Part shown: piece by piece, positions 28,331 to 45,196 of the stretch
Numbering within the stretch: the first letter of the stretch is position 1
Layout of the letters: every line of letters begins with the position of its first letter
NCBI GenBank assembly: GCA_017434855.1
Contig: JAFRUA010000019.1
Span: forward strand, 1 to 62,907
Length of the DNA: 62,907 nt
From: Clostridia bacterium
Lineage (GTDB): Bacteria > Bacillota > Clostridia > Oscillospirales > Acutalibacteraceae
Direction: 5' to 3'
Position numbers and translations under genes: made by a program
Notes under the pieces: generated by a model
The model's input: only the letters and a program-made list of their open reading frames with translations
Databases searched by the model: none
What the model was told of the DNA's origin: nothing

Positions 28331-31144
28331 TTACTGTTCGCTCGGATAGTCGCCCTTGCCGGTGACCTTGCGCTTGATGATCTTGCCCATGCGCTTGAGG
28401 GCATAGGGACCGACCAGCTTCATCATTTCCTCGGCCGTGTGCATCTCGGAGCACGCAGGCAGGTCGCGCGTCAGATGGATGGCGTCGAATTCGCAGCGCG
28501 TGGTGCACAGGCCGCAGCCGATGCACATATTGAAATCCACCGTCGTGGCGCCGCAGCCCAGGCACCGGGCCGCTTCGGTCTTGATCTGCGCTTCGGTCAG
28601 CGGCAGACGCAGGTCATTGAAGCTCTTGCGCGGGTCGCCCTTTTTCAGGCCGGGCGTCTGGCGCGGGGCATTGTCATAGGATTCGACCTTGATGTCGTCC
28701 TTGTCCAGTTCGATGAACCGGCGCAGATCGCGGCCGATGGTCAGCGACTGGCCCGCATGCACAAAGCGGTTGAGCGAGACCATGCCCTCGCGGCCGTCCG
28801 CAATCGCGTCGATGGCGAAGCGCGCGCCGTGGAAGATGTCGCCGCCCACAAAGATGTCGGGTTCGGCTGTCTGCAGCGTGACCGGGTCGGCCTCGGCAGT
28901 GCCGTTACGGCGGACGACGACTTTGCTGCCCTTGAGCAGGCCGCCCCATTCGGCGCTTTGGCCGATCGCCATCAGCACGTTGCTGCACGGCACGGTGATC
29001 GTGTCGTTTTCGTCGTACTTCGGTGCAAAGCGGTGCTCGCTGTCAAAGACGCTGACGCACTTTTTGAAGACCACGCCGGTGACCTTGCCGTCCTTGACCA
29101 GAATCTCTTTCGGGCCCCAGCCGTTTTTGATTTCGATGTTTTCTTCCAGAATCTCGGCAACCTCATCCTTGGCCGCGGGCATCTCGTCCCGCTGCTCCAG
29201 GCAAAGCATGGTGACTTTGCCGTCGGTGCAGCGCAGGGCGGTGCGGGCGACGTCCGCCGCCACATTGCCGCCGCCGATGACCACCACGTCGCCGGTGAGC
29301 CGGTCGGATTTGCCGAGGTTGACGTTCTTCAGGAAGGCGACGCCGCTCTGTACGCCGTCGGCGTCCTCGCCCGGGACCCCCGCAAGGCGGCCGCCCTGCA
29401 GACCGATGGCGATGAAAAAGCCCTTGTAGCCCTGCGCGCGCAGGTCGTCGAGCGTGATATCTTTGCCGACTTCCACGCCGCATTTGATCTCGGCGCCCAT
29501 GGCTTCAATCAGGTCGATCTCCTTTTGCAGCACATCCTTTTCCAGCCGGAAGGCGGGAATGCCGTTCATCAGCATGCCGCCGGGGCGCGCTTCCTTTTCA
29601 AACACGGTGACGGGGTAGCCCTCGGTGCGCAGGTACCACGCGGCGGACAGACCCGCCGGGCCGGCGCCGATGACGGCGATCTTGTGATCGCTCCACTGAT
29701 TGCCTTCGCCGTTTTCGCTGATGACCTTGAAATCGTCGGGGTTTTCCAGCTCCCACTGCGCCAGGAACTTTTTGATTTCATCGATGGCAACGGGCTTGTC
29801 GATCGTGCCGCGGGTGCAGGCGTCTTCACAGCGGCGGTTGCAGACCGCGCCGCACACGGCAGGGAAGGGGTTATCCTGCCGGATGAGCTTGACCGCCTCG
29901 GCATAGCGGCCCTCGCCCGCCATTTTGACATAGCCCTGCACGGCGATGTGGGCGGGGCAGGCGGTCTTGCACGGTGACGTGCCGCTGTCATAGCAGTTGA
30001 TCTTGTTGTTGTCGCGATAGTTGTAGTCCCACTTGTCTTCGCCCCAGACGTGGTCGTCCGGCAGGTCGTGCACGGGGTACTTGACGGCGGTGCCGTCTTT
30101 TTTGCACAGCTTCTGGCCCAGCTTGGCCGCGCCGGCAGGGCAGACCTCGACGCATTTGCCGCAGGCGACGCACTTTTCTTTGTCCACATGGGCGCGGTAC
30201 GCCGACCGGCTCATGTTCGGGGTGTTGAAGAGCTGGCTGGTGCGCAGGCCGTAGCACGAACCGGCAGAGCAGTTGCAGATGCCGACGATGCGGTTCGGGC
30301 CGTCCAGGTTGGTGATCTGGTGCACATAGCCCTTGCGTTCGCCGCGCATGATGATCTCCATGGCCTCTTCCTTGGTGATGTATTCGGCGTCCTTGCCGCT
30401 TTCCACCAGAAATTCCGCAATGTCGTTGAGGCCGATGCACATTTTGCCCTCGATGTCGCCCACGCCTTCGCCGCGCACGCGCTGCGCCTTGCGGCAGGCG
30501 CAGACCATTTTGCACAGCTTGGTGGAATTGTTGATCCAGTGCGACAGATGCTCCACGCTGGCGCTTTCGATCTTGGGGTCGATGGCCTGCTCCACCGGGA
30601 TGACGTGCATGCCGATGCCTGCGCCGCCCGGCGGCACCAGCTTGGCGGCCAGCTCCAGCGGCTCCTGCGGGGCCAGATTAAACATGGTCGCGACCTCGGG
30701 GTTGGTGTCGCACAGCGTCGGATGTTCGACCATGTATTCGCCGGAGCCGACGACCCATTTCGGGATCCAGTACTGGATGTGCCCGTCGGGATTGTCGCGG
30801 TTCTGCTCCACAATACCGATCCACACCAGATGGTCAATGACCTTCTGGGCGTCTGCTTCGCTCATGTTGTTGCGCTGTGCCAGCTCGGCGGTGGTCAGAC
30901 CCACACGGCGCTGCTTGAACGAAAGCATGAATTTGACCTCGTCCTTGGTCAGCAGCCGATCCAGAATCCAGAAATCCATGTGGTTCTCTTTCATCTTGCC
31001 GGGCAGCTTGCGCGGGATGGAGTCTGTGATCAGAACAGCCAGCTTTTTGACCAGCTTTGCTTTTTCGGGATCGTCGCAATGATGCGCGTCCACGGGGTAA
31101 TCACGTTCATTGACGTGGATGTTCGGGTTGACTTCTTTAACCAT
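28331..31144 (-). CDS. Giant Fe-S/GltD-like NAD(P)H oxidoreductase (left-arm copy)
   Basis: 937 residues. Residues about 55-130 are winged-helix-like (TKDEVKFMLSFKQRRVGLTT). Residues about 210-310 hold Cys motifs VCACRKAQRVRGEG and ICNCSAGSCYGLR. A 4Fe-4S motif CVACGKCVEVCPAG lies near residues 325-338. From about residue 390 it resembles the small subunit of glutamate synthase and NfnB: CPAHIAVQGYVKMAGEGRY, VCGAVCNRRCEDAC, the FAD loop GAGPAGLSAAW (about 492) and the NAD(P) loop GGGNVAADVA (about 622). A C-terminal ferredoxin part has CLGCG and CIGCGLCTTRCEFDA. It probably shuttles electrons from NAD(P)H to a low-potential acceptor or substrate. Last gene of the left arm, 10 bases after the reductase gene. 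A paralogue lies at 39224-42004. Confidence 0.82.
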   Translation of the reverse strand: MVKEVNPNIHVNERDYPVDAHHCDDPEKAKLVKKLAVLITDSIPRKLPGKMKENHMDFWILDRLLTKDEVKFMLSFKQRRVGLTTAELAQRNNMSEADAQKVIDHLVWIGIVEQNRDNPDGHIQYWIPKWVVGSGEYMVEHPTLCDTNPEVATMFNLAPQEPLELAAKLVPPGGAGIGMHVIPVEQAIDPKIESASVEHLSHWINNSTKLCKMVCACRKAQRVRGEGVGDIEGKMCIGLNDIAEFLVESGKDAEYITKEEAMEIIMRGERKGYVHQITNLDGPNRIVGICNCSAGSCYGLRTSQLFNTPNMSRSAYRAHVDKEKCVACGKCVEVCPAGAAKLGQKLCKKDGTAVKYPVHDLPDDHVWGEDKWDYNYRDNNKINCYDSGTSPCKTACPAHIAVQGYVKMAGEGRYAEAVKLIRQDNPFPAVCGAVCNRRCEDACTRGTIDKPVAIDEIKKFLAQWELENPDDFKVISENGEGNQWSDHKIAVIGAGPAGLSAAWYLRTEGYPVTVFEKEARPGGMLMNGIPAFRLEKDVLQKEIDLIEAMGAEIKCGVEVGKDITLDDLRAQGYKGFFIAIGLQGGRLAGVPGEDADGVQSGVAFLKNVNLGKSDRLTGDVVVIGGGNVAADVARTALRCTDGKVTMLCLEQRDEMPAAKDEVAEILEENIEIKNGWGPKEILVKDGKVTGVVFKKCVSVFDSEHRFAPKYDENDTITVPCSNVLMAIGQSAEWGGLLKGSKVVVRRNGTAEADPVTLQTAEPDIFVGGDIFHGARFAIDAIADGREGMVSLNRFVHAGQSLTIGRDLRRFIELDKDDIKVESYDNAPRQTPGLKKGDPRKSFNDLRLPLTEAQIKTEAARCLGCGATTVDFNMCIGCGLCTTRCEFDAIHLTRDLPACSEMHTAEEMMKLVGPYALKRMGKIIKRKVTGKGDYPSEQ

Positions 31145-31154
31145 GCTGCACCTC

Positions 31155-32339
31155 TTATTCGATCGGGATCTTGATCGTCACGTCACTGGTGGGATAGGCG
31201 GCGCAGGCGTGCACATAACCGAAGTCCTTGTCGGCACTGCGGCGGCCGTCGTTTTCCGGGCAGACATAGACGCTGCCGGAAAGGACCTTGGTGCGGCAGA
31301 AACCGCATTCGCCGCTGCGGCAGGCCGTTTCGATGCGGATGCCGGCGCGTTCCAGCGCGACAACCAGACTTTCGGTCGCCTTGGCGGGGATGACGTCCTT
31401 CTGGATGCCGCGCATGACGGTGAGCGAAAACGTCTTGTCCTTAAGTTCCTGCGGGTACCCGGCAAAGGCGGTGATGTCTTTTGCCTGACCGAAAACTTCA
31501 AAGCGGATGCGGCGCGCCGGTGCGTCGAGCTTTTTCAGCTCTTCGCGCAGGAAGGTATACATCGCCTGCGGCCCGCAGATGAAATAGGTCGTGTCGGGCG
31601 CGGAATACTTTTTGATCAGGTCTGCGGTGAGAAAGCCGCGCTCGCCCTGCCAGTCCGGTTCGTCGCCGGACAGGACGTTGACGACGTGGACCTTGTCGCC
31701 CTGCAGCGCCTCCAGCTCGTCTTTCAGGATGATGTCGTTTGACGCAACGGAGCCATAGAGGATCGTCAGGTCAAAGTCCAGCGTGCCGTGGGCGATCTCT
31801 TTTGCCATGGAGGCAAACGGTGTGATGCCGACGCCGCCGGCAAGCGCCACCACATGCTTTGCGTCGCGCAGCGGCTCCCAATAGAACTGGCCGCAGCCCA
31901 TCATGGCCTTGAATGTGTCGCCGACCTTGACGTCGGTGTTGATGTAATCCGCGATGAAGCCGTCGCCCTTGGACCGGCGAACGGTGATTTCGGCAAAGCC
32001 CTTGCCCTCGCGCGCTTCAAACGGCGCGGAGCTGAGGGAATAGGGGCGTGAGATGATGCTGTCACCGATGACGAAATCCAGCACGATGAACTGACCGGCA
32101 TAAAAGTACGGCAGTTTTTGGCCGTCCACGCGCTCAAAGCGAACGGTTTTTGCCGTGGGGCTGGCGTCGCGGATGGCGGTGACGACCACGTCAAATTTGG
32201 CGGGGTGCCATTCCCTGACGACCTCGGCGATGGGGTCGGTCGTTTCCGGCACGGCGGACGCGGTCTCAAAGGCGTTCAGCCTCGCTTTGGTCACACGGGA
32301 CGCGCCCGTGACGTCTTTCAAAAATCCTTTGATCTTCAT
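31155..32339 (-). CDS. Ferredoxin reductase-type flavoprotein fused to a 2Fe-2S ferredoxin domain
   Basis: 394 residues. After about 45 N-terminal residues, an FNR-type FAD domain has SRPYSLSSAPFE, then an NAD(P) domain with GGVGITPFASMA and FICGPQAMY. The last 85 residues form a plant-type 2Fe-2S ferredoxin with CRSGECGFCRTKV and a fourth Cys in YVHACAAYP. This order is that of NADH:acceptor reductases such as HCP reductase. It overlaps the CrtI-like gene by 4 bases (ATGA) and is followed by the giant oxidoreductase. Pairing an FNR-like flavoprotein with a GltD-like one recalls the NfnAB transhydrogenase; whether bifurcation occurs is unknown. Confidence 0.87.
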   Translation of the reverse strand: MKIKGFLKDVTGASRVTKARLNAFETASAVPETTDPIAEVVREWHPAKFDVVVTAIRDASPTAKTVRFERVDGQKLPYFYAGQFIVLDFVIGDSIISRPYSLSSAPFEAREGKGFAEITVRRSKGDGFIADYINTDVKVGDTFKAMMGCGQFYWEPLRDAKHVVALAGGVGITPFASMAKEIAHGTLDFDLTILYGSVASNDIILKDELEALQGDKVHVVNVLSGDEPDWQGERGFLTADLIKKYSAPDTTYFICGPQAMYTFLREELKKLDAPARRIRFEVFGQAKDITAFAGYPQELKDKTFSLTVMRGIQKDVIPAKATESLVVALERAGIRIETACRSGECGFCRTKVLSGSVYVCPENDGRRSADKDFGYVHACAAYPTSDVTIKIPIE

Positions 32340-33871
32340 TTCGCTGCCGCCTCCTCTACTGCCATGGTGTCAAGCACATTCTTTGCCGCCTTGCGGCCGT
32401 TGGTCACGGCGGGGCCCATGCCGTCGCCGGAAATCGCGTGTGCGCCGGAAAACTCCAGATGTTTGATGAAGCTTTCGGCCTCGGCGGTCTGCAGGCGGGC
32501 GATGATGTGGTCCTCCATCGTGTGGGCATAGCCGTAGATGCAGCCGTTCCACGCGTTGGTATAGCGGTTGACGGTCATCGGCGTTTCAATGACGATCTCC
32601 AGAATATGATCGCGCAGGTTCACGCCGAGATAGCCGGACATATCGCTGATCATCTGTTCGGCCACCTGATGCTTGATCTTGTCATAATCCTCTGCCTTGA
32701 CGGTCTTCCACCCGTCCACGCGCGGCAGGGTGGTGATGGAATACGAGCAGGTGCCCGGCGGAGTGGCGGTGTCGTTGCCCAGGTTGTGGCAGATGCACGT
32801 CAGATAGCGATAGGGACCGAGGCCCGCGAGGTCCTTGTACAGCGCGTCGGTGTCCATCGTGTCACCGCGAAAAACGCTGTAGTCCTTGATGCCGAGCGCC
32901 TCGGCGGTGTCGTCCAGGATCATGATGACCGAAAACGCCGTCAGGCTCAGGCGGCGGCCGTTGACCATCTTGATCGCTTCCTTCGGCACCTCGGACGCCG
33001 GCTCGATCATGGCGGTGTAGACCTTGTTGGGATAGGACGAAGAGATGACGTAATCCGCGTGGATCTCGTCGCCGCGCGAAGTGCGCACGCCATAGGCCTT
33101 GCCGTTCTTGACCAGGATCTTATCGACGTGCTGACGGTATTCGATCTGTACGCCCATGGCCTCGGCGCGCTCCGCCATCTTTAGACTCATCTCATGGCTG
33201 AACTTGCGCGGGATGTAGGAGCCGTAGCCGATGTAGTCCGCCATCAGCACGGAATAGATCGTGAACGGCAGATCGGAAAAACCGGAGCCGACATAGATCC
33301 AGTACGGCGCCAGCAGGTCCTGCGCCTTTTTCGGCAGGTCAAAGCTGTCGATGACCTCCTGCGTGGTATAGCCGGCGGTCTTTACAAAGGCCTCGTGCTT
33401 GATGAGCATCTTGGCCTTGCTCATCGGGTGGATGGACAGCTCGTTGACAGAGTCGAACACGCTGTTGCACAGGTTCAGCAAGGCAAGCACCTTTTGATAC
33501 GTGCCGGGCACGGCGGCGTCCACCTCTTTGGCAAATGTCTCCAGCCCCGGATGCAGCGTGACCTCCAGCCCGGGCAGCGATGCGTGATACGCTTCGGGCA
33601 CCTTGAGCCATTCGATGTCGACGCCCATGTCGTCAAAGAATTTGCCGACCTTGAGACGGTTGTCCTTTTCACCGATGCTCATCATCTCATGCAGCGCCGC
33701 CTCGATCTCGATGCCGCCGCGCACAAAGCTGGACGCAATGCCGCCGGGCAGATTGTGGCGCTCCAGCACCAGCACGTCCTTGCCCTTGTCGGCCAGCATC
33801 AGGGCGGAGGACAGCCCCGCCAGTGCGCCGCCGATGACGATCACGTCATAATGATCTTTGTAAAATTTCAT
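32336..33871 (-). CDS. CrtI/RetSat-like FAD-dependent desaturase, isomerase or saturase
   Basis: 511 residues. The N-terminal dinucleotide fold is VIVIGGALAGLSSALMLADK, followed by the phytoene-desaturase motif LVLERHNLPGGIASSF. The C-terminus has the family FAD-contact region GAHAISGDGMGPAVTNGRKA. The family includes carotene desaturases and isomerases and retinol saturase, which all act on conjugated or isolated C=C bonds of lipids. Here it sits between a fatty acid isomerase homologue and an electron-transfer flavoprotein, so a fatty-acid C=C saturase or desaturase is plausible. I use ATG 33871 because the Rossmann fold starts there and GAGAGG lies upstream; ATG 33898 would add nine residues. 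Confidence 0.85.
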   Translation of the reverse strand: MKFYKDHYDVIVIGGALAGLSSALMLADKGKDVLVLERHNLPGGIASSFVRGGIEIEAALHEMMSIGEKDNRLKVGKFFDDMGVDIEWLKVPEAYHASLPGLEVTLHPGLETFAKEVDAAVPGTYQKVLALLNLCNSVFDSVNELSIHPMSKAKMLIKHEAFVKTAGYTTQEVIDSFDLPKKAQDLLAPYWIYVGSGFSDLPFTIYSVLMADYIGYGSYIPRKFSHEMSLKMAERAEAMGVQIEYRQHVDKILVKNGKAYGVRTSRGDEIHADYVISSSYPNKVYTAMIEPASEVPKEAIKMVNGRRLSLTAFSVIMILDDTAEALGIKDYSVFRGDTMDTDALYKDLAGLGPYRYLTCICHNLGNDTATPPGTCSYSITTLPRVDGWKTVKAEDYDKIKHQVAEQMISDMSGYLGVNLRDHILEIVIETPMTVNRYTNAWNGCIYGYAHTMEDHIIARLQTAEAESFIKHLEFSGAHAISGDGMGPAVTNGRKAAKNVLDTMAVEEAAAK

Positions 33872-33943
33872 AGGCTTTTTATTCCTCTCTCTGCTCAAAG
33901 CAGGAGGGACACTGCTGCCCCTCCTGACATTTGCTGTTTGATT

Positions 33944-35332
33944 TTAGAAGAAGCGCTCCACCAGCTCGCGGGAGTACTCTGCGGTCTCGTCCATATCGCC
34001 GAAGCTCATGATCTCACCGGCATAGTAGGTGTCATACTTGCCCTGCATTGCCTCGACCTTTTCATACCAGCCGGCGGCATAGTCCTCGGAGAAGACATGG
34101 GGGAAGTAATAGACGCTCCACTCGTTGACGACGTTGGACGCCGGGTTGCCCATGGTCTTGAGGTCGTCAAGCACCATCTTTTTGCAGGCCTCATAGTCCA
34201 CTTCTTCGCTGTTCTTATGCTTGCGCAGCGCATAGGTGGTGATGACCTGGTCCTTGGTGTCCTTCCAGCGGCGATAATACACCATCAGGTGACCGAGCTT
34301 TTCCGGAATCATGTTGTCGAAAACATAGTAGGAGATCTCCGGATGATCCTCCGGCTTGGTCTCGCAGGCAAGCACGTCATAGCGCTCATAGTCGATCTTG
34401 GAGAACAGTTCTTTTTCGTCCTCGCGGGCGTCAAAGTAATCCACCATGCCGATCTGGCCGTCGGCGCGCTCGTTCGGGATATACAGCGGCGCGGTGACGA
34501 TGATCTTGTCATACTCCTCCACTTCGCCGTTGACGGTGACAAAGACCTTGCCGTCCTTGCGCTCCACCTTGTCGATCTTGCTGTTCAGGCGGGCGGGGTT
34601 CTTCAGATGGTCGTTCAGGCTTTCCCAGATGAACTGGGTGCCGTTCTTCCAGGTCCACAGGTTGATCTTGACAAAGTTCATGCAGGTCTGGAAGTCGAGA
34701 TACTTCAGCACATAGGCCGCGGGAATCTCGTCAAAATAGCCGTAACCGAAGGAGGTGAAGGGGCCGATCCAGATGTCCTGGATCAGGTCGACGCCGTTGA
34801 GCTCGCAGAACTTGTTGAACGGCAAAGCCAGATCCTTCAGGTTCGGGTTGACGCCGCTGACGGGCTCGCGCTTCGCATTGCGCTGCGAAAAGCCCTCATA
34901 CCGGCCTTCGGACACGCCGCGGTGACCGTTGAGGTCATAGCCGCGATACTTGGTTTCCAGCAGCTCGCCCAGCTTTTTGACCTGGCTCTTCATCTTGAGC
35001 AGGCGCGGGATCTTGAGCGGGTTCTTTTTCGGCTCAAACGGCTCGATGACTTTGCCGCTGCCGTCTTTGTAGTTGCGGTTGAGCTGCGGGCCGTCGTGGG
35101 TGATGCCGCAGAATTCCTCCACGTCGTGCACGGCGTAGTAAGAGGGCACGCCCATGATGGCGCCCATCTCATAGCGGCGGCCGTTATAGGTCGGCGACCA
35201 GCATTTGCCGCCCACGCGGTCCAGACGCTCAAGAATCGTGTAGTTGGTGTACCCCTTCTGTTCCAGATACATCCCGGCAGAAAGACCCGCAGGGCCGCCG
35301 CCGACGATACAGATGCGAATGTCCTTGTCCAT
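33944..35332 (-). CDS. Polyunsaturated fatty acid isomerase homologue (PAI-like flavoprotein)
   Basis: 462 residues, FAD/NAD(P)-binding amine-oxidase fold. From memory it closely resembles Cutibacterium acnes PAI, which converts linoleic acid to 10-trans,12-cis CLA using FAD without net redox change. Shared features are GGGPAGLSAGMYLEQKGY, TILERLDRVGGKCWSP, GRRYEMGAIMGVPSY, FGYGYFDEIPAAYVLKYLDF, HLMVYYRRWKDT, AGWYEKVEAMQG and the C-terminal FYAGEIMSFG-type end (YYAGEIMSFGDMDE). It is about 40 residues longer than the 424-residue enzyme, with an insertion around residues 80-165. First gene of the left arm, with AGGAGG before the ATG. I infer action on an unsaturated fatty acid; exact substrate and product are not shown by sequence. 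Confidence 0.88.
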   Translation of the reverse strand: MDKDIRICIVGGGPAGLSAGMYLEQKGYTNYTILERLDRVGGKCWSPTYNGRRYEMGAIMGVPSYYAVHDVEEFCGITHDGPQLNRNYKDGSGKVIEPFEPKKNPLKIPRLLKMKSQVKKLGELLETKYRGYDLNGHRGVSEGRYEGFSQRNAKREPVSGVNPNLKDLALPFNKFCELNGVDLIQDIWIGPFTSFGYGYFDEIPAAYVLKYLDFQTCMNFVKINLWTWKNGTQFIWESLNDHLKNPARLNSKIDKVERKDGKVFVTVNGEVEEYDKIIVTAPLYIPNERADGQIGMVDYFDAREDEKELFSKIDYERYDVLACETKPEDHPEISYYVFDNMIPEKLGHLMVYYRRWKDTKDQVITTYALRKHKNSEEVDYEACKKMVLDDLKTMGNPASNVVNEWSVYYFPHVFSEDYAAGWYEKVEAMQGKYDTYYAGEIMSFGDMDETAEYSRELVERFF

Positions 35333-35403
35333 AGTAATTCCTCCTAAACAGTTTTGGAATCTCGTTTTTCATGTCATGCAAAATAGACATAACAATCATA
35401 CAT

Positions 35404-35432
35404 ATTATACAATGCGGATTTGAAAAAATCAA
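35404..35432 (-). promoter_or_regulatory. Promoter of the left arm of the fatty-acid cluster
   Basis: On the minus strand TTGATT (35432-35427), 17-bp spacer, TATAAT (35409-35404), about 70 bases upstream of the isomerase gene. Confidence 0.75.
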
Positions 35433-35435
35433 GCG

Positions 35436-35450
35436 AAATTGTTGCAATTT
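35436..35450. promoter_or_regulatory. Palindromic operator candidate in the divergent gap
   Basis: AAATTG-TTG-CAATTT is a perfect 6-bp inverted repeat with a 3-bp centre, adjoining the left-arm -35 box. Further AT-rich symmetric sequence (GAAATTTC at 35473-35480) follows toward the right arm. A MarR/TetR-like or fatty-acid-responsive regulator could bind here. I found no clear consensus promoter for the right arm in 35333-35558; TTGCTA at 35488 lacks a well-spaced -10. Confidence 0.5.
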
Positions 35451-35558
35451 ATTAAAGAAATATTAAATTTGAGAAATTTCGCCCGGATTGCTATTTTCTT
35501 TTTGTACGATTTGTGTTAAGATGAATCTGAACAATTCTGTGAACCGTGAGGTGAAATC

Positions 35559-36902
35559 ATGCGCTTTTCAAGCTTTGAAGAGATGCTGCGCCACTATGCG
35601 CAGTCCACGCCCGACGCCCCGGCCATCCGCTATGCCGCGGACGGCAAGGTGCAGGCCCTCAGCTTTGCGGCGTTTTATGACGCGGTGCGTTCCCGCGCGG
35701 CGGACCTGCGTGCGGCCGGAAAGACCAGCCTGGGCGTGCTGTGCGACGGGTCGCTTGATTGCGTGACCGAAATCTTTGCTGCGGTGCAGGCCGGCCTGCA
35801 GTTGGTCCTTTTAAATGAAAACGCCGGGCCGGAGCATCTTGCCCGCACAGACGTGGACGCCCTTTGGGGCGATGCCGCGCTGACGGAAGAACTGGCCGGC
35901 GCGCTGACAGCCGGCGTGACGGACGGCAAGGGCCGCATTCTCTTTTTTACGTCCGGGACCACGGCAAAGATGAAGGCCGTTGCCCTGACGGAGCAAAGCC
36001 TGTGCAGCAGCGCCTACAACGGCGGCGCCCTTTTGCCGCTGCAGCCGTGCGACGTGCTGCTGTGCATGCTGCCGCTGGACCATGTGTTTGGCTTTGTGTG
36101 CGGGCTGCTGTGGGGCCTGTCCTGCGGGGCATGCGTGGCGCTCGGGCGCGGCGCGCGGCATTATTTTGACGACTGCGCGTTCTTTCAGCCCACGGCGCTG
36201 TCTGCCGTGCCGCTGCTGATCGGTTTTTTGCTGCAAAAGAATCTGCTGAACCCCGAACTCAGACTGGTACTCATCGGCGCGGGCGACTGTTCGCAAAAGA
36301 TCACCACGGCGCTGCAGATGAAGGGTCTGCGTGTGTCGTTCGGCTACGGCCTGACCGAAACGTCGTCCGGCGTCGCGCTTTCGCTCGGCGACGACCCCTA
36401 TGCCATGACCGTTTGCCCGGATGACAAGGTCACCATCGCCGACGACGGCGAGATTTTGATCGAGGCGCCGACCTGCTGCATGACGGGGTATTATAAAGAT
36501 CAGCCGGCCACCGACGCCGTGCTCAAAAACGGCGTGCTGCACACCGGCGACCTGGGGCGCATCGACGCCCACGGTCTGCTGCATATCGAGGGCCGCAAAA
36601 AAGAGATCCTTGTGCTGGCAGACGGCACCAAGCTGTTTTTGCCGGAATATGAGTTTTCCATCTCTGCTGCGCTTTCCGGGCGCGACTTTGCCGTGGTGGA
36701 GGATCACGGCGTGCCTTTGCTGGTCGTTCACGGCGACGAAAGCGAGCGGGGAACCGTCACGGCGCAGCTGGAGCCGCTGATGAAGCATCTGCCGCTGGGG
36801 CGGCGGCTGCGCGCCATTCAATTTGTCTGCGACCCGCTGCCGCGCACGGCGACGGGCAAAATAAAACGTTGGGAGCTCCAACAGAAGGTGGTAACACAAT
36901 GA
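35559..36902 (+). CDS. Acyl-CoA/acyl-ACP synthetase (AMP-forming)
   Basis: 447 residues, a compact ANL-superfamily adenylating enzyme. Motifs in order are the P-loop-like FFTSGTTAKMKAVALT (about residue 130), GYGLTETSSG (about 265), HTGDLGRID (about 328), GRKKEIL (about 345), and the C-terminal catalytic Lys in TATGKIKRWE. It is shorter than typical fatty-acyl-CoA ligases (about 500-560), mainly in the N-terminal part. The stop overlaps an acyl carrier protein gene by 4 bases, so loading a fatty acid onto that carrier is the natural reading. First gene of the right arm. Confidence 0.9.
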   Translation: MRFSSFEEMLRHYAQSTPDAPAIRYAADGKVQALSFAAFYDAVRSRAADLRAAGKTSLGVLCDGSLDCVTEIFAAVQAGLQLVLLNENAGPEHLARTDVDALWGDAALTEELAGALTAGVTDGKGRILFFTSGTTAKMKAVALTEQSLCSSAYNGGALLPLQPCDVLLCMLPLDHVFGFVCGLLWGLSCGACVALGRGARHYFDDCAFFQPTALSAVPLLIGFLLQKNLLNPELRLVLIGAGDCSQKITTALQMKGLRVSFGYGLTETSSGVALSLGDDPYAMTVCPDDKVTIADDGEILIEAPTCCMTGYYKDQPATDAVLKNGVLHTGDLGRIDAHGLLHIEGRKKEILVLADGTKLFLPEYEFSISAALSGRDFAVVEDHGVPLLVVHGDESERGTVTAQLEPLMKHLPLGRRLRAIQFVCDPLPRTATGKIKRWELQQKVVTQ

Positions 36903-37144
36903 CAAGACAGGAGATTTTTGATCAGACCATCGAGATCGTGCATGAATGCGTGCCTGAGACCGAGGGTCAGGTTCTGGAAGAAAACACCGTGATCAACACC
37001 GACACAGCCATCGATTCCATGGGCTTCACCATGATCATCTGCCGCATCGAGGGAACATTTGATATCCGCATCCCGGATAAGCAGTGGGAAAAGCTCTATA
37101 CCGTCGGCGACGTGGTTTCGGCGATTGAAAAGCGCCTGAAATAA
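36899..37144 (+). CDS. Acyl carrier protein
   Basis: 81 residues. The phosphopantetheine site is Ser in AIDSMGFTMII, a DSM variant of the usual DSL. The acidic four-helix pattern fits (QEIFDQTIEIVHE, VGDVVSAIEKRLK). It is a dedicated carrier, distinct from the FASII AcpP expected elsewhere in the genome. ATGA overlap with the synthetase, and the thioesterase begins one base after its stop, so the three are tightly coupled. Confidence 0.9.
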   Translation: MTRQEIFDQTIEIVHECVPETEGQVLEENTVINTDTAIDSMGFTMIICRIEGTFDIRIPDKQWEKLYTVGDVVSAIEKRLK

Positions 37145-37145
37145 G

Positions 37146-37856
37146 ATGGAACCCTATCGCAAGCAATACAAAATTCTGTCCAGCGATACCGACCGGTACC
37201 GCCGGCTGCGGCTGAGCCGGCTGCTGACCTTTTTGCAGGAGGCGGCCATTGCCCACACCGAACAGCTTGGCGCGGGGCGGGCCAAAACGCTGGATCGCGG
37301 CCTGCTCTGGGTTCTGACGCTGCAGCAGGTGACGGTGACGCGCCTGCCGGCGTATGACGAGACCGTGACGCTGGAATCGCTGCCCGGCGAGATGATGCAC
37401 ACGTTCTTTCCGCGGTACTATCGCCTTCTGGATGACGGCGGCAATGTGCTGGTCAACGCCTCGGCGCTCTGGATGCTGATGGACTGCAAAACGCGCGCCA
37501 TGGCCTTCCCGGAGAAGGTCGGCGTCACGATCCACGGCGAAAAACCCGACTGGGCGATCGCGCTGCCGCGTGCGCCGAAGCTGCCGCAGGGCGGTGAAAC
37601 GCAGCCGTTCACGGTGCCTTACAGCTATGTGGACCTCAACGGCCACATGAACAACACGCGCTATCTGGACCTGGCGGAGGATCGGATGCCGGACGCGCTG
37701 CGCAGCCGGGCCGTGCGCGAGCTGCTGACGGAATATACCGGTGAAGCAAAGCTGGACGAAACCATCCGCCTGACCGCAGAAACGGACGAAACGACGTTTC
37801 TGCTTTCCGGGTCCGGCGAAAAGCGGCTGTTCCGCCTCGGGCTTTATTACAATTAA
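37146..37856 (+). CDS. Acyl-ACP thioesterase
   Basis: 236 residues with two hotdog-fold halves, as in FatA/FatB-type bacterial thioesterases. The second half has the hallmark YVDLNGHMNNTRYLDLAED, with the Asp/Asn/His region used in catalysis; the first half has LLTFLQEAAIAHTEQLG and LPAYDETVTLESLP. It would release a free fatty acid from the adjacent acyl carrier protein, closing a load-modify-release cycle with the upstream synthetase. Confidence 0.92.
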   Translation: MEPYRKQYKILSSDTDRYRRLRLSRLLTFLQEAAIAHTEQLGAGRAKTLDRGLLWVLTLQQVTVTRLPAYDETVTLESLPGEMMHTFFPRYYRLLDDGGNVLVNASALWMLMDCKTRAMAFPEKVGVTIHGEKPDWAIALPRAPKLPQGGETQPFTVPYSYVDLNGHMNNTRYLDLAEDRMPDALRSRAVRELLTEYTGEAKLDETIRLTAETDETTFLLSGSGEKRLFRLGLYYN

Positions 37857-37872
37857 AGGATAGGTGGGTCCC

Positions 37873-38544
37873 ATGGACTACAGAATCATTGAAACCAAAG
37901 CGCGTGTGCTTGCCGACAACGATGCGGCCGCCGCGCGCAACCGGCAGACCATGCGGCAAAGCGGCGCCGTTCTGGTCAACCTGATGGGGTCCCCGGGCGC
38001 CGGGAAGACCTCCACGCTGAAACAGCTCATTGCCCGCCTGGGGACCAAATACCGCATCGGTGTGATGGAGGCGGACGTCGATTCCGACGTGGACGCCAAA
38101 GCCATTGCCGCCACCGGGACGCGGGTCATCCAGCTGCACACAGCCGGCCTTTGCCACATGGATGCCGACATGACCGCCCGCGGTCTGGACGCGATGGGCG
38201 CCGACGGGCTGGACCTGATCTTTCTGGAAAATATCGGCAATCTGGTCTGCCCTGCGGAATTTGAGATCGGCGCCGACCTGCGGCTGATGCTCCTTTCCGT
38301 GCCGGAAGGGGACGACAAGCCGCTGAAATATCCGCTGATGTTTCAGGTCAGCGACGTGCTGCTCGTCAACAAGATCGACACGCTGCCGGTCTTTGATTTT
38401 GATTTTGACGCGCTGCGCAACCGCGTATTTGCGCTGAACCCGAAGATGACCGTCCTTCCCGTGTCTGCCAAAAGCGGTGAAGGTTTTGACGCCGTGGCGG
38501 ACCTGATCGCCGCGCTGCTGGACGAAAGGGGGGCGACGGCATGA
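37873..38544 (+). CDS. hypB: HypB-type nickel GTPase (first copy)
   Basis: 223 residues, SIMIBI-class GTPase. Walker A is GSPGAGKTS; EADVDSDVDAKAIAATG follows, then the metal-site Cys-His in HTAGLCHMDADM, and the HypB signatures FLENIGNLVCPAEFE, SVPEGDDKPLKYPLMF and the G4 motif NKID. HypB supplies GTP-dependent nickel insertion with HypA for [NiFe]-hydrogenase. The N-terminal His-rich or CCxxC nickel site of some HypBs is absent. No hydrogenase or HypCDEF is in the window. ATG 37873 follows AGGTGG; it overlaps the second hypB copy by 4 bases. Confidence 0.9.
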   Translation: MDYRIIETKARVLADNDAAAARNRQTMRQSGAVLVNLMGSPGAGKTSTLKQLIARLGTKYRIGVMEADVDSDVDAKAIAATGTRVIQLHTAGLCHMDADMTARGLDAMGADGLDLIFLENIGNLVCPAEFEIGADLRLMLLSVPEGDDKPLKYPLMFQVSDVLLVNKIDTLPVFDFDFDALRNRVFALNPKMTVLPVSAKSGEGFDAVADLIAALLDERGATA

Positions 38545-39200
38545 AGCGCATCACCCTGAACGCCACCGTGACCGCGTCCAACGAACGGGACGCCGACGCC
38601 CTGCGCGCGCGGACCAAAGCCATGGGCACGCTGCTGGTCAATGTGATGAGCAGCGCCGGCAGCGGCAAGACCACGCTGCTGTCCCGGATCATCAAAGATT
38701 TGGCGGGCCTTCGCATCGCCGTGATGGAGGCGGACATCGCCTCTGACGTGGATGCCGAACGGATCGAAGCGCTGGGCGCGGCGGCTGTGCAGGTCCATAC
38801 GAGCGGCATGTGCCACATGGACGCCGGCATGACGGCGGCGGCGTTTGACGCGCTGGGGGACGAACGGTTCGACCTCGCGTTTCTTGAAAATGTGGGGAAT
38901 CTCATCTGCCCGGCGGAGTACGACACCGGCGCGGGCAAAAAGCTGATGATCCTCTCTGTGTCAGAGGGCGACGACAAGCCGCTGAAATACCCGCTGATGT
39001 TCAAAGAGAGCGACGCGCTGGTGATCTCAAAGATCGACGCGCTGCCCTATTTTGACTTTGACCTGCCGCGCTGTATCTACTGCGCGAAAAAGCTGAACCC
39101 CGGCATCGCCGTGTTCCCTGTCAGCGCAAAGACGGGCGAGGGGATGGCCGCGCTGGAGCAATGGCTGCTGGATTGTGTCAACGACTGGAAAACGAACTGA
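38541..39200 (+). CDS. hypB: HypB-type nickel GTPase (second copy)
   Basis: 219 residues and clearly paralogous to the preceding gene: EADIASDVDAERIEALGA, SGMCHMDAGM, FLENVGNLICPAEYD and SVSEGDDKPLKYPLMFKESD. Its P-loop is SSAGSGKTT, with Ser in place of the first Gly, and the G4 motif is SKID instead of NKID, so nucleotide handling may differ. HypB works as a dimer, so the two copies may form a heterodimer. It lies between the first copy and a giant Fe-S oxidoreductase, with hypA after that. Confidence 0.88.
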   Translation: MKRITLNATVTASNERDADALRARTKAMGTLLVNVMSSAGSGKTTLLSRIIKDLAGLRIAVMEADIASDVDAERIEALGAAAVQVHTSGMCHMDAGMTAAAFDALGDERFDLAFLENVGNLICPAEYDTGAGKKLMILSVSEGDDKPLKYPLMFKESDALVISKIDALPYFDFDLPRCIYCAKKLNPGIAVFPVSAKTGEGMAALEQWLLDCVNDWKTN

Positions 39201-39223
39201 CGATATCAAAAGGAGATGCTGCA

Positions 39224-42004
39224 ATGAAACCGCAAAAAAATCGCATGGTCAATGAACGCGACTACGCGCAGGACCCGAATTACGTCGCACCCGACAAGGA
39301 GAAGGAAAAGCTCGTTCTCAAGCTCGGTTCATTGATCACAGACCGCTATCTGGTCAAGTATACCCACACCATGGGTACCGACGATCCGGAGTACTGGGCG
39401 CTTGACCAGATCCTCAACAAGGATGAGGTCAAGTTCCTGCTGAACTTCAAAAAGACCCGCGTGCCGTACGACATCCCGACGCTGGCCCAAATGAACAACA
39501 TGAGCGAGGAAGACACGCAAAAGATGATCGACCACCTGTGCTGGATCGGTCTGGTTGAAATGACCCGCGAGGGGCCGGACAAGAAAAAGCACTACAACCT
39601 GCCGATCTTTGTGCCGGGTTCTGCCGAGTTCATGATGATGAACGACGAGCTGACCGCGCAGCACCCGAACCTCGCGACCTTCTTCAACCTCATGACCCAG
39701 ATGCCGCTGGAGGGCATCACCCAAATGGTGCCGCCGGGCGGTTCCGGCGTGGGCATGCACGTCATCCCGGTCGAAAAGGCCATTGAGCATGAAAACAGCT
39801 CGGTGCCGGTGGAGCACATCTCTCACTGGCTGAGCAAATATGACAAATACTCTGTGGGCCAGTGCACCTGCCGCAAGCAGCAGACCATGCGCGGCGAGGG
39901 CAGCGGCGAGATCAACGGCGAGTTCTGCATGGGCGTGGGCGACATGGCCGAATACAGCGTGGACCGCGGCATGGGCCGCTACATCAGCTATGAAGAGGCG
40001 CTGGAGATTCTGGAACGCGCGGAGCGCCACGGCTTTGTGCACCAGATCACCAACATCGACGGCGAAGACAAAATCGTCGCCATCTGCAACTGCGCCCCCG
40101 GCGTGTGCAACGCGCTGCGGACCAGTCAGCTTTACAACACCCCGAACATGAGCCGTTCGGCGTACCGTGCCCATGTGGAAAAGGCAAAGTGCGTCGCCTG
40201 CGGCAAGTGCGTCGAGGTCTGCCCCGTCGGCGCGGCAAAGCTCGGTCAAAAGCTGTGTACAAAGCACGGCGAAATGAAGTATCCGCTCTCCGAGTTGCCC
40301 GATAAGAAAAAATGGGGCCCCGACAAGTGGAACCCGAACTATCGTGAGGACGCGAAGATCAACTGCTATGACACCGGCACCGCGCCGTGCAAAACCGCGT
40401 GTCCGGCCCACCTGGCCGTGCAGGGCTATGTCAAGATGGCGGCGGACGGCCGCTACCTTGACGCGCTGAAGCTCATCAAGCAGGATAACCCCTTCCCGGC
40501 CGTGTGCGGCGCCGTCTGCAACCGCCGGTGTGAGGACGCCTGCACGCGCGGCACCGTTGACCAGCCCATCGCGATCGACGAGATCAAAAAGTTCATCGCC
40601 GCCCAGGAGCTGCATGCCGACAAGCGCTTTGTCCCCGTCTGTGAAAAGGACGACGGCGGCATGTGGGGCCCGGATTACAAAATGGCGGTTATCGGCGGCG
40701 GCCCGGCGGGCCTGTCGTGCGCCTATTATCTGCGTACCCGCGGCTATGACGTGACCGTGTTTGAAAAGGAAGAGCGTCCCGGCGGCATGCTGGTCTACGG
40801 CATTCCGAATTTCCGGCTGGAAAAGGACGTCATCGACGCCGAGATCGACGTGCTGCGCCAGATGGGCGTGGAGTTCAGGTGCGGCGTTGAGGTCGGAAAA
40901 GACGTGACGGTCCAGTCCCTGCGCGACGCGGGCTACAAGGCATTTTATCTTGCCATCGGGATGCAGGGCGGCCGCAAGGCGGGCGTCCCCGGCGAGGACG
41001 CCGAAGGCGTGCAGTCCGGCGTGGACTTCCTGCGGAACATCAACGCCGATCCCAAGCTGAAGCTGAAGGGCGACGTGGTCGTCATCGGCGGCGGCAACGT
41101 CGCGGTGGATGTGGCCAGAAGCGCCGTCCGCGCCGCCAAGGGCAAGGTCACCATGCTTTGCCTGGAGGGTGCAAATGAAATGCCCGCCGCGGACGACGAG
41201 GTTGCCGAGGCAAAGGAAGAGGGCATCACCGTGATGAACGGCTGGGGCCCGAAGGAGATCATCGTCAGGGACGGCAAGGTTGCCGGCGTCATCTTTAAAA
41301 AGTGCGTCAGCGTCTTTGACAGCGAGCACCGCTTCAGCCCGAAATATGATGAAAACGAAACGATCACCGTTGACTGCGAAAACGTGCTGCAGGCCATCGG
41401 CCAGAGCGCCGTCTGGGGCGATCTGCTGAAAGGTACCAAGGTTGAGCTGCGGCCCAACGGCACCGTTGTTCACGACCCCGTCACCTTTGAAACGGCGGAG
41501 CCCGACATCTTTGTCGGCGGCGACATCGGCCACGGCGCACGCTTTGCCATCGACGCCATTGCGGACGGCAAGCTGGGCTGCGAAAGCATGCACCGCGCGG
41601 TCCATCCCGGCCAGTCGCAGACCGTTGCCCGCGACAAGCGCGAGTTCATCGAGCTGGACAAGGACGACATCATTCTGGAAAGCTTTGACAACGCCAAGCG
41701 CCAGGTGCCCGGCCACAAAAAGGGCAAGGCGACCGCGACCTTTGACGACCTGCGTCTGCCGCTGACGGAAGAACAGGTCAAGGTCGAAGCGGCCCGCTGC
41801 CTCGGCTGCGGCGCCACGGTGGTTGACCTCAACCGCTGCATCGGCTGCGGCCTGTGCACCACGCGGTGCGAGTTTGACGCGATCCATCTCAGCCGCGACC
41901 TGCCGGACTGCTCCAACATGGTCCGCTGCGAAGACAAGATGTTCAAGGTCGGCCCCTATGCGCTCAAGCGGATGGCAAAGATCGCCTTCGGGGGCAAGAA
42001 ATAA
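39224..42004 (+). CDS. Giant Fe-S/GltD-like NAD(P)H oxidoreductase (right-arm copy)
   Basis: 926 residues and the same domain order as the copy at 28331-31144: N-terminal winged-helix-like part (NKDEVKFLLNFKKTRVPYD), Cys motifs QCTCRKQQTMRGEG and ICNCAPGVCNALR, a 4Fe-4S motif CVACGKCVEVCPVG (about residue 323), the GltD-type region (CPAHLAVQGYVKMAADGRY, VCGAVCNRRCEDAC), FAD loop GGGPAGLSCAYYL (about 490), NAD(P) loop GGGNVAVDVA (about 620) and terminal CLGCG plus CIGCGLCTTRCEFDA. ATG 39224 has AAAGGAGATG upstream. It lies between hypB and hypA, so a metal-dependent role is possible, but no established nickel-binding motif is visible. Confidence 0.82.
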   Translation: MKPQKNRMVNERDYAQDPNYVAPDKEKEKLVLKLGSLITDRYLVKYTHTMGTDDPEYWALDQILNKDEVKFLLNFKKTRVPYDIPTLAQMNNMSEEDTQKMIDHLCWIGLVEMTREGPDKKKHYNLPIFVPGSAEFMMMNDELTAQHPNLATFFNLMTQMPLEGITQMVPPGGSGVGMHVIPVEKAIEHENSSVPVEHISHWLSKYDKYSVGQCTCRKQQTMRGEGSGEINGEFCMGVGDMAEYSVDRGMGRYISYEEALEILERAERHGFVHQITNIDGEDKIVAICNCAPGVCNALRTSQLYNTPNMSRSAYRAHVEKAKCVACGKCVEVCPVGAAKLGQKLCTKHGEMKYPLSELPDKKKWGPDKWNPNYREDAKINCYDTGTAPCKTACPAHLAVQGYVKMAADGRYLDALKLIKQDNPFPAVCGAVCNRRCEDACTRGTVDQPIAIDEIKKFIAAQELHADKRFVPVCEKDDGGMWGPDYKMAVIGGGPAGLSCAYYLRTRGYDVTVFEKEERPGGMLVYGIPNFRLEKDVIDAEIDVLRQMGVEFRCGVEVGKDVTVQSLRDAGYKAFYLAIGMQGGRKAGVPGEDAEGVQSGVDFLRNINADPKLKLKGDVVVIGGGNVAVDVARSAVRAAKGKVTMLCLEGANEMPAADDEVAEAKEEGITVMNGWGPKEIIVRDGKVAGVIFKKCVSVFDSEHRFSPKYDENETITVDCENVLQAIGQSAVWGDLLKGTKVELRPNGTVVHDPVTFETAEPDIFVGGDIGHGARFAIDAIADGKLGCESMHRAVHPGQSQTVARDKREFIELDKDDIILESFDNAKRQVPGHKKGKATATFDDLRLPLTEEQVKVEAARCLGCGATVVDLNRCIGCGLCTTRCEFDAIHLSRDLPDCSNMVRCEDKMFKVGPYALKRMAKIAFGGKK

Positions 42005-42007
42005 GCC

Positions 42008-42352
42008 ATGCACGAAATGGGAATCGTGCTGCACCTGGCAAAAACGCTGGACGAAACGGCGGCCGAGGAGCAGCTGACGAAGATCGGCAAGGTCGTGCTG
42101 CAGGTGGGCGAGGTGTCCGGCATCATGACGGACCTGTTTGTGGACTGCTGGAACTACTTCAAGGGCCGCCATGACGTGCTCAAAGACAGCGAGCTGGTGC
42201 TGGAGACCATCCCCGCCGTGACCTATTGCGACAACTGCAAGGGGACCTATGAAACGGTCAAGTACGGCAAGGAGTGCCCCTACTGCCACTCCGGTGAAAC
42301 GTGGCTGCTGAAAGGCAGCGAGTGCATCATCAAAGAGATCGAGGCGGAATGA
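42008..42352 (+). CDS. hypA: HypA-type nickel metallochaperone
   Basis: 114 residues, the normal HypA size. The N-terminus MHEMGIV contains the Met-His-Glu nickel ligands, and the zinc site is CDNC followed by CPYCHS. HypA passes nickel to the target enzyme with HypB. It begins 3 bases after the oxidoreductase stop, so hypB-hypB-oxidoreductase-hypA is one transcript. The HypC/D/E/F proteins needed for the [NiFe] active-site ligands are absent here, which suggests either service to a hydrogenase elsewhere or a different nickel enzyme. Confidence 0.93.
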   Translation: MHEMGIVLHLAKTLDETAAEEQLTKIGKVVLQVGEVSGIMTDLFVDCWNYFKGRHDVLKDSELVLETIPAVTYCDNCKGTYETVKYGKECPYCHSGETWLLKGSECIIKEIEAE

Positions 42353-43032: not shown

Positions 43033-43854
43033 TTATTTCTTCAATGCTGCGGCGACCGCGTTGTCGCCCATCGCCTTCAGCTTTTGCTTAAAGCGCTCCA
43101 GCTTCGCGTTTTCCAGCGCCCAATAGACGGTGCGCACCGGCGGGCAGACGCCCATCAGGACCTTGGAGAGACCAAACAGCGGGCTGGGAGAGACAAACTT
43201 TTTGCCGCTCTCGATGCCGGCGACCATCTTGCGGGCCACAACGTCGGGCTGCTGCACCGGGAAGGGCTTTTCAAATTCCACGGGGTTCGCCACGCGGAAG
43301 AAGTTGGTGTTGGTCGCGACCGGATACAGGCAGGTGATCTGCAGGTTCTTCGGCGCCTCGATGCGGATCGCCTGCTGAAAGCCCTGCAGGCCGAACTTGC
43401 TGGCGCTGTAGACCGCGTAGCCCGGCATGGCCATTTGACCGATGGCGCTGACCGTGAAGGCCAGGATGCCGTCGCGGCCGTCCAGATGGTGCAGGTACTT
43501 GGAATAGGTATACATCGGCGAGAAGGTGTTCGTTTCAAACATGGCGCGCACACGGTCCCAATCCTCATAGTTGTACTCTTCATAGTACGGGAAGCCCGCG
43601 TTGGCATAGAAGATGTCGATTTTTTCGCCGCCGAAGACCTCGTTTGCCTTTTCAAACACGGCGTCCACGCCTGCGGCGGAGCTGATGTCCATGTTGAAGG
43701 GGATCACGTTGTCGGCATAGGTCTTCAAAAGCTGCTCCGCGTGACGGGACACGGCAAGGATGGTGTTGGTTCCGTCCTTGGCAAGCAGGCGAAGCACCTC
43801 AAAGCCGATGCCGCTGGACGCGCCGGTCAAAACGATGTTTTTGCACTGGATCAT
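43033..43854 (-). CDS. Short-chain dehydrogenase/reductase
   Basis: 273 residues, classical SDR fold. The cofactor loop is TGASSGIG, the structural NAG motif is FYANAG, and the catalytic residues are Ser in FTVSAIGQM and Tyr/Lys in YAVYSASK. The C-terminal 40 residues are basic and helical. The sequence around VSRHAEQL gives an Arg after the second strand, which favours NADP. A ketone/alcohol or enone-type lipid reaction would suit the neighbourhood. It lies 40 bases after the tocopherol-cyclase-like gene and 60 before the deformylase-like gene. Confidence 0.9.
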   Translation of the reverse strand: MIQCKNIVLTGASSGIGFEVLRLLAKDGTNTILAVSRHAEQLLKTYADNVIPFNMDISSAAGVDAVFEKANEVFGGEKIDIFYANAGFPYYEEYNYEDWDRVRAMFETNTFSPMYTYSKYLHHLDGRDGILAFTVSAIGQMAMPGYAVYSASKFGLQGFQQAIRIEAPKNLQITCLYPVATNTNFFRVANPVEFEKPFPVQQPDVVARKMVAGIESGKKFVSPSPLFGLSKVLMGVCPPVRTVYWALENAKLERFKQKLKAMGDNAVAAALKK

Positions 43855-45031: not shown

Positions 45032-45098
45032 GGTACTTGCTCCTTCGTATTTTGATGTGGCAAAAGTTCCGTTCTCCTCGTGGAACTTCAACATATTT

Positions 45099-45127
45099 AT
45101 CATACCATGTGCAAGGTTTTCTGTCAA
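45099..45127 (-). promoter_or_regulatory. Promoter of the tocopherol-cyclase-like operon
   Basis: Minus strand TTGACA (45127-45122), 17-bp spacer, TATGAT (45104-45099), about 65 bases before the ATG at 45031. Confidence 0.8.
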
Positions 45128-45146
45128 TCTTTTTTCTGAAAACAAA

Positions 45147-45184: not shown

Positions 45185-45196
45185 CTGCATATCAGC

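Follow-up and report, generated by a model that had tools for sequence, protein, structure and literature searches.

The window studied here, a 62,907-nt contig (JAFRUA010000019.1, assembly GCA_017434855.1) of a Clostridia bacterium of the Acutalibacteraceae, contains at positions 28331-42352 a cluster of 11 genes in two divergent operons, in which a homologue of the polyunsaturated fatty acid isomerase (PAI) of C. acnes is combined with two giant oxidoreductases resembling IsrA, a putative isoprene reductase, and with three nickel-chaperone genes of the HypA/HypB type. With a probability of roughly two in three, we read this cluster as a biohydrogenation system for polyunsaturated fatty acids (PUFA), in which the PAI homologue would isomerise the substrate, the IsrA-like nickel/Fe-S giants would reduce it, and an acyl ligase, an acyl carrier protein (ACP) and a thioesterase would load and release the chain. 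Judged by its gene content, the cluster is a strong candidate for the long-missing genes of rumen biohydrogenation. This process sets the amounts of unsaturated, trans and conjugated fat entering milk and meat, and a compact conserved gene set in many ruminant metagenome-assembled genomes (MAGs) makes its genes testable.

The original prediction had named an isomerase, a flavoprotein, an FNR-ferredoxin fusion, two giants and an adenylating enzyme/ACP/thioesterase trio in two divergent operons with gene overlaps, and open reading frames (ORFs), Pfam and NCBIfam bear out these genes, their positions and their arrangement. Its inventory left out HypB1, HypB2 and HypA, and it is because these three genes lie within the same interval that the reading of the giants has changed. 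Outward from the divergent region, the minus-strand operon runs from the PAI homologue through the CrtI-like and FNR-ferredoxin genes to giant1, and the plus-strand operon runs through ligase, ACP, thioesterase, HypB1, HypB2 and giant2 to HypA. Adjacent genes overlap by 4 nt at CrtI/FNR, ligase/ACP and HypB1/HypB2, and the other gaps are short. Five promoter-like sites, identified as consensus matches only, were found in 35250-35620 versus 0.7 expected, four of them inside the intergenic gap. The features are as follows:

28331..31144, minus strand: giant1, IsrA-like Fe-S/FAD oxidoreductase, 937 residues (Pfam/NCBIfam and six-cysteine site)
31155..32339, minus strand: FNR-ferredoxin fusion, 394 residues, with FAD, NAD and C-terminal 2Fe-2S domains (Pfam/NCBIfam)
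32336..33871, minus strand: CrtI/carotenoid-isomerase-like FAD protein, 511 residues counted from the chosen ATG (Pfam/NCBIfam, PDB match)
33944..35332, minus strand: PAI homologue (polyunsaturated fatty acid double-bond isomerase family), 462 residues (match to PDB 2b9w)
35333..35558, no strand: divergent intergenic region, 226 bp, with promoter-like sites on both strands (consensus matches only)
35559..36902, plus strand: AMP-forming acyl ligase, 447 residues (Pfam/NCBIfam)
36899..37144, plus strand: ACP, 81 residues, DS motif (Ser40) (NCBIfam)
37146..37856, plus strand: acyl-ACP thioesterase (PF01643/PF20791), 236 residues (Pfam)
37864..38544, plus strand: HypB1, nickel-chaperone GTPase, CHX31C motif, GTG start (Pfam/NCBIfam)
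38541..39200, plus strand: HypB2, nickel-chaperone GTPase, CHX31C motif (Pfam)
39224..42004, plus strand: giant2, second IsrA-like Fe-S/FAD oxidoreductase, 926 residues from the ATG (Pfam, six-cysteine site)
42008..42352, plus strand: HypA nickel chaperone, MHE start, two CxxC motifs (Pfam)

C. acnes PAI acts on PUFA with methylene-interrupted double bonds, linoleate for example, and forms a conjugated diene. As predicted, it is the closest solved relative of the window protein (PDB 2b9w, 477 bits; runner-up, 44 bits), with 232 of 416 aligned residues identical (56%) in an alignment that spans almost the entire protein. In it, the counterparts of R88, F168 and F193 are conserved, R88 and F193 presumably being active-site residues. 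Among the window PAI and 12 further family members (that of locus L154 included), the R88 equivalent is kept in 13 of 13 and that of F193 in 12 of 13. Remote members of the family, found in the minimal operons described below, are 19-33% identical to the window protein, and for the two of them that were compared with the PDB, 2b9w is the clear best match as well (214 vs 34 bits for L166; 146 vs 35 for L173). Two further candidate locations were rejected: 44 pattern matches on viral contigs included no PAI relative, and for close PAI on plasmids, three records gave 25-28% identity only.

The two giants are 65% identical to each other. Both contain the originally predicted GltD-like FAD/NAD domain together with Fer4_20 and additional 4Fe-4S sites (NCBIfam, Pfam), and their first ~290 residues show no Pfam or NCBIfam match except the edges of ferredoxin models. 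Each giant carries a six-cysteine site, consisting of C215-x-C217, C236, C290-x-C292 and C297 in giant1 and of C215-x-C217, C236, C289-x-C291 and C296 in giant2 (numbering including one residue before the ATG). Alignment of 40 giants demonstrates conservation of this site, three of its residues being Cys in 40/40 and the other three in 39/40 with one gap; a second set of giants keeps all six in 11/11.

IsrA of Acetobacterium wieringae has 901 residues (Kronen et al. 2023, PMC10134865; statements from this and the other papers cited here refer to excerpts of them). Its N-terminus is unassigned, and six clustered cysteines, with CxC motifs at 180/182 and 254/256, were suggested as a possible nickel site at which a predicted tunnel terminates. 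The neighbours of 988 IsrA homologues include hypA (0.73), hypB (0.56), DUF5692 (0.4) and TetR (0.21), and the isr operon, with its hypA/hypB genes, is induced by isoprene. Other conjugated hydrocarbons were proposed as substrates of the family, and an oleate hydratase gene was found near the IsrA homologues of A. woodii and A. fimetarium; the main text contains no word starting with linole-, rumen or Butyrivibrio (PMC10134865).

The window giants were recognised as IsrA-like because their architecture, six-cysteine site and Hyp neighbours match these published features. Like IsrA and its clade 9, they comprise ~900-940 residues with an unassigned N-terminal ~270 residues, extra 4Fe-4S sites, PF14691 and PF07992 in the same domain order; the two CxC motifs of their six-cysteine site are likewise ~74 residues apart, and hypA and hypB adjoin. 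In addition, DUF5692 was confirmed by Pfam next to giants or PAI genes in L162, L163, L166, L183 and L187, and a TetR gene stands beside FNR in L154. Unlike the isr operon, with two HypA and one HypB, the window has two HypB and one HypA; it also has neither a separate 4Fe-4S ferredoxin gene nor a second hypA, and its giants are paired and joined to PAI, CrtI, FNR-ferredoxin and the ligase/ACP/thioesterase trio. Since PAI yields conjugated dienes and IsrA is linked to conjugated-diene reduction, the pairing fits two consecutive steps.

The same likeness might instead point to another polyene (terpenoid, sterol or plant secondary product) as the substrate, considering that IsrA is linked to isoprene, that the CrtI family acts on carotenoids and that PAI-family members at 19-33% identity are too remote to fix a substrate. 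This appears very improbable for the window, where the PAI homologue is 56% identical to the C. acnes enzyme with the equivalents of R88, F168 and F193 kept, and where ACP and acyl-ACP thioesterase indicate acyl chains.

We also checked the assignment of the Hyp genes in the window genome and 58 relatives (n = 59; HypA search at E 0.001). HypA matches occurred in 17 genomes, 15 of them over the cut-off and 14 at full length; in G041 the match is over the cut-off but partial, and the remaining matches short of full length are weak. Twelve of the 14 full-length carriers are exactly the giant-bearing genomes, and the other two (G037 and G048) are the sole carriers of NiFe hydrogenase (Fisher p 8e-11 for 12/0/2/45, kinship between genomes ignored). 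No NiFe hydrogenase match was obtained in the window genome (G000, 97.9% complete) or in any of the 12 giant genomes. A role of HypA/HypB in hydrogenase maturation was rejected, as the hydrogenase occurs in only 2/59 genomes, neither with a giant. The Hyp genes were thus assigned to the giants, which leads to the reading of the latter as nickel-chaperoned reductases.

The gene set is not a chance arrangement, because the same set recurs in other genomes. Full-length PAI was detected in four of the 58 relatives, all of the same genus as the window; CrtI at >90% identity was detected in five, and giant1 at no less than 89% identity in the same five. Three genomes (G004, G019 and G028) have the complete eleven-gene cluster in unchanged order. 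In G022 no HypB gene was detected alongside the others, and a different contig carries giant1. Other members of the genus possess a giant (~54-60% identity) and Hyp genes, PAI being absent. Some PAI-less giants of this genus (L034, L036 and L037) have close by an alpha/beta hydrolase gene whose match to LCAT, a family of acyltransferases and lipases, is weak (20-24 bits; cut-off 21).

A contig scan yielded 325 stretches encoding PAI relatives, of which the best 80 (84-93% identity, a set biased to the window's kin) were examined. Their titles give a ruminant host or organ (31), a RUG label (34), which we take to stand for rumen uncultured genome, or no source (15), and their taxonomic labels include Oscillospiraceae/Ruminococcaceae, Lachnospiraceae and two Sphaerochaetaceae. 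The predicted gut origin therefore holds in a narrower form, the closest relatives coming from ruminant guts and not from guts in general. The two MAGs labelled Sphaerochaetaceae (Spirochaetota; L062 and L092, PAI 89% and 86%) carry the cluster, which may reflect gene transfer or mis-binning. Among the best 80 loci, 76 have room for a downstream CrtI, and 75 of these show it at most 1 kb from PAI and in the PAI orientation; FNR follows at up to 2.7 kb in 70 of 71, and the ligase, divergent from PAI, is within 1 kb in 66 of 74. Where at least 9 kb is available on both sides (34 loci), CrtI, FNR, ligase, ACP and thioesterase are each present at 33 and any giant at 28.

A giant (a piece of >120 residues at >40% identity) shares the locus with PAI in 59 of the 80 cases. 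For 20 of the other 21, a giant or large pieces of one, often cut by a contig end, were found elsewhere in the genome at 46-87% identity (genome-wide search of 23 genomes, three of which have a giant in the PAI locus); L076, left out of that search, shows a short giant1 piece at the contig edge. Giants or large giant pieces are thus present in 79/79 PAI genomes tested among these relatives. The co-occurrence of PAI with its neighbours, which the original prediction had put up for checking, is found again in other genomes, and the eleven-gene cluster is real and conserved, and its distribution is patchy.

To offset the bias of the best 80 towards the window's kin, even samples of 390 other genomes of the class and 397 other genomes of the phylum were drawn; some genomes, e.g. 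G048 and G084, are common to both samples, but no PAI carrier is. In the class sample, a giant was identified in 32 genomes (E 1e-180), in every case below 70% identity; this count is possibly low as only two candidates were scored per genome. A single PAI query at E 1e-40 found one carrier (G306, 59%), and the PAI-family model A5 at E 1e-30 found five (G266, G306, G324, G351 and, with a remnant, G099), all of which fall among the 32 giant-bearing genomes (Fisher p 2.7e-6, kinship ignored). The rows of the model include G266 and G306, G266 having first been met via its giant; G099, G324 and G351 stand outside the model and bear giants too. The PAI gene or remnant lies <4 kb from the giant in G266, G324, G351 and G099. 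In G306, FNR-CrtI-PAI and ligase-ACP-thioesterase share a contig and giant-HypA-HypB stands at the end of another. The phylum sample contains eight PAI-family genes in six genomes (model A6, E 1e-30); seven have a giant no more than 4 kb away and HypA in the vicinity, and HypB occurs at three of those seven. Taken together, 11 of the 13 PAI-family genes or remnants in the two samples are within 4 kb of a giant.

Further examination revealed a minimal operon in L166, L173, L174 and L183-L186, comprising a regulator-like gene, a PAI-family gene, a giant, HypA and, in five of the seven, HypB; CrtI, FNR, ligase, ACP and thioesterase were not found in these operons by the same search. In L188-L190, regulator and PAI are divergent from the giant. 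An HTH_28/HTH_32 protein of ~330-370 residues directly adjoins PAI (L183 10068-11189, L173 10893-11972, L189 8119-9114) and is, from its domains and position, likely a dedicated regulator of the minimal operons; it was Pfam-tested in these three loci and judged elsewhere by resemblance of the first residues. Because PAI and giant occur without CrtI, FNR, ligase, ACP and thioesterase, and 0/79 PAI genomes tested are without a giant or large pieces of one, isomerisation followed by reduction is the likely core of the system.

The predicted order of events, an unsaturated fatty acid being isomerised and then reduced, is to this extent supported by synteny; the assignment of the reduction to the CrtI-like protein fares less well, the giant with HypA/HypB being the better supported candidate. 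The best models of this protein are those of the carotenoid isomerase/CrtI families, far under their cut-offs, and its best PDB match is a gamma-carotene desaturase (54 bits), so that of the original label, CrtI/RetSat-like, the first half stands and the second amounts to distant resemblance. It is nevertheless conceivable that CrtI and FNR-ferredoxin form the conjugated-diene (or monoene) reductase, in the manner of retinol saturase, with the giants supplying electrons or serving another substrate. CrtI is the tightest neighbour of PAI (75/76 loci with room, and 70/71 for FNR), and at ~57 kDa it is nearer in size to the reductase for conjugated linoleic acid (CLA) of Butyrivibrio, reportedly ~60 kDa. 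We consider this unlikely, since L123 has PAI without CrtI or FNR in its flanks, the minimal operons and L188-L190 combine a PAI-family gene with a giant and neither of the two, and no PAI genome tested (0/79) lacks a giant or large giant pieces. CrtI paralogues at 32-36% identity are common in the window's genus and form a separate group. Two CrtI subtypes were also observed among the 80 loci (~72-95% vs 56-60% identity to the window CrtI); FNR co-varies with them, and the clusters are otherwise similar.

When 42 giants were placed in a tree, the PAI-linked ones were mostly recovered in two groups, each with good support and separate from the other. The minimal-operon group has 12 rows, of which ten are PAI-linked, one has a PAI remnant and one is without PAI, and all seven members of the ruminant giant1 group are PAI-linked. 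Where a PAI locus has a second giant (window giant2, L056 and L064), that giant is placed elsewhere, among unlinked ones. The PAI-link label requires five changes on the tree versus 14.3 in shuffles. Therefore, either the pairing with PAI arose repeatedly, or it is a retained state that has disappeared from other lineages.

Pfam confirms the FNR-ferredoxin fusion, the AMP ligase and the acyl-ACP thioesterase. The window ACP has a DS motif and reaches 53 bits with NCBIfam acyl-carrier models, below the 70-bit cut-off, and shows no Pfam match at E 0.001; with these results the predicted trio stands. The presence of ligase, ACP and acyl-ACP thioesterase, each at 33 of the 34 loci with full flanks, and of a short-chain dehydrogenase gene just beyond the cluster (43033-43854), might suggest that the cell's own acyl-ACP chains are altered, giving trans or conjugated membrane lipids, and that dietary fatty acids are not involved. 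Such a role seems improbable: the cluster proteins gave no match to ketosynthase, dehydratase or ketoreductase, ruminant guts, which are rich in dietary PUFA, are the source of many loci, the minimal operons are without the trio, and C. acnes PAI is said to act on the free fatty acid.

In the biohydrogenation system that we propose, PAI would shift one double bond of a methylene-interrupted PUFA (e.g. linoleate) to give a conjugated diene. HypA/HypB would charge the giants with nickel at the six-cysteine site, and the giants would pass electrons from NAD(P)H through FAD and 4Fe-4S clusters to the conjugated diene, turning it into a monoene, which might be reduced further to the stearate of full saturation. 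Ligase and ACP may load the chain on a soluble carrier, from which the thioesterase would release it. CrtI and FNR-ferredoxin may be a usual but dispensable second redox pair, perhaps for further reduction or a cis-trans step. The system might serve detoxification, an electron sink or both.

Several observations weigh against this proposal. Functions of PAI and giants are assigned from linkage and sequence, and the Butyrivibrio CLA reductase, reportedly ~60 kDa, is unlike a giant. In the class sample, a PAI-family match at E 1e-30 is absent from 27 of the 32 giant-bearing genomes, so that giants serve other functions as well. The PAI-family gene of G490 adjoins DUF5692 and has no giant within 9 kb. 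Even where flanks of 9 kb or more are available to each side (34 loci), Hyp genes occur in them at only 19 loci (HypA 18, HypB 13). Two genomes retain the reductase half: G001 (L040, 4801-10904), a member of the window's genus and the one of the five CrtI/giant1 carriers that is not a PAI carrier, has HypA-CrtI-FNR-giant1 without PAI, ligase, ACP or thioesterase, and G099 retains CrtI-FNR-giant-HypA-HypB with a TetR-like gene between them (by resemblance to that of L154). In the latter (L168, 14458-14967), PAI is reduced to its last 94 residues and the thioesterase to 77, and ligase and ACP were not found. Since these two natural losses affect PAI jointly with ligase and ACP and spare CrtI, FNR, giant and Hyp genes, the reductase half may work alone, e.g. 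on CLA from neighbours. Moreover, the kinship of the giants to IsrA is set by the published features of IsrA, and IsrA itself is a 'putative' reductase supported by proteomics and reverse transcription PCR (PMC10134865).

An IsrA-like giant was also encountered on a 267-kb plasmid labelled Subdoligranulum variabile (OY725877.1; L172, 6199-10013), where it is 57% identical to giant2 and lies unannotated with HypB and HypA.

Among known systems, the Lactobacillus plantarum enzymes CLA-HY/DH/DC/ER saturate PUFA via conjugated intermediates by a hydratase route. The proposed pathway shares such intermediates and differs in its enzymes, as hydratase, dehydrogenase, decarboxylase-type isomerase and enone reductase were not found among the eleven cluster genes. 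Linoleate isomerase and CLA reductase of Butyrivibrio were reportedly described by Kepler and Tove in 1967, Hughes in 1982 and Fukuda in 2007. The chemistry proposed here, isomerisation followed by reduction of the conjugated diene, resembles that of B. fibrisolvens, whose system is a trans-11 pathway and was compared with the cluster by description. Excerpts of the INBov1 genome paper state that Butyrivibrio genomes contain no linoleate isomerase gene (PMC6249431). The CLA oxidoreductase, whose sequence is attributed to Fukuda 2007, is according to excerpts of PMC4478896 in no database and so could not be searched for in genomes; the same source gives an NADH:CLA stoichiometry of 1:1, which disfavours electron bifurcation in Butyrivibrio.

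With respect to C. acnes, the window isomerase is homologous over nearly its full length, and it differs in sitting with reductase genes, since C. acnes halts at trans-10,cis-12 CLA (PMC7339423). Of 28 rumen strains, only C. acnes formed trans-10 intermediates, stopping at CLA, and according to the excerpts the bacteria of the trans-10 pathway have not been unambiguously identified (PMC7339423). PAI homologues (at least 40% identity) were reported in 7 of 228 rumen MAGs, in passages without gene context (Zhang et al. 2023, PMC10019597). The view of the original prediction that genes for such biohydrogenation are not known must be qualified on two counts, these homologues and the Butyrivibrio CLA reductase sequence (as cited in PMC4478896) being in print. 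We found no paper linking PAI homologues with IsrA-like reductases in the open-licence PMC literature, preprints excluded; as far as searched, an isomerase coupled to a nickel-chaperoned diene-reductase family is not in print.

Tentatively, and with slightly less than even confidence, we would generalise further: a PAI-family isomerase with a nickel-dependent IsrA-like reductase may constitute a widespread, unrecognised anaerobic PUFA biohydrogenation system of Firmicutes, whose ruminant version with CrtI, FNR and acyl-ACP genes would underlie one of the rumen pathways, plausibly that via trans-10 products. If true, the IsrA family would have a natural substrate, a nickel enzyme for alkene reduction would be indicated, and the trans-10 pathway, which is linked with milk-fat depression, would plausibly have a genetic basis.

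Beyond the cluster, a larger conserved neighbourhood was rejected: among non-cluster ORFs of at least 90 residues, only one family, an ABC-transporter ATPase (10/80), recurs in at least five of the 80 loci. A tocopherol-cyclase-like family does not reach five of these loci. In the window itself, 43895-45190 on the minus strand, 1.5 kb from the cluster, gives a weak tocopherol-cyclase match (25.3 bits vs a cut-off of 26.6), which is curious because alpha-tocopherolquinol has reportedly been described as an electron donor for biohydrogenation in Butyrivibrio.

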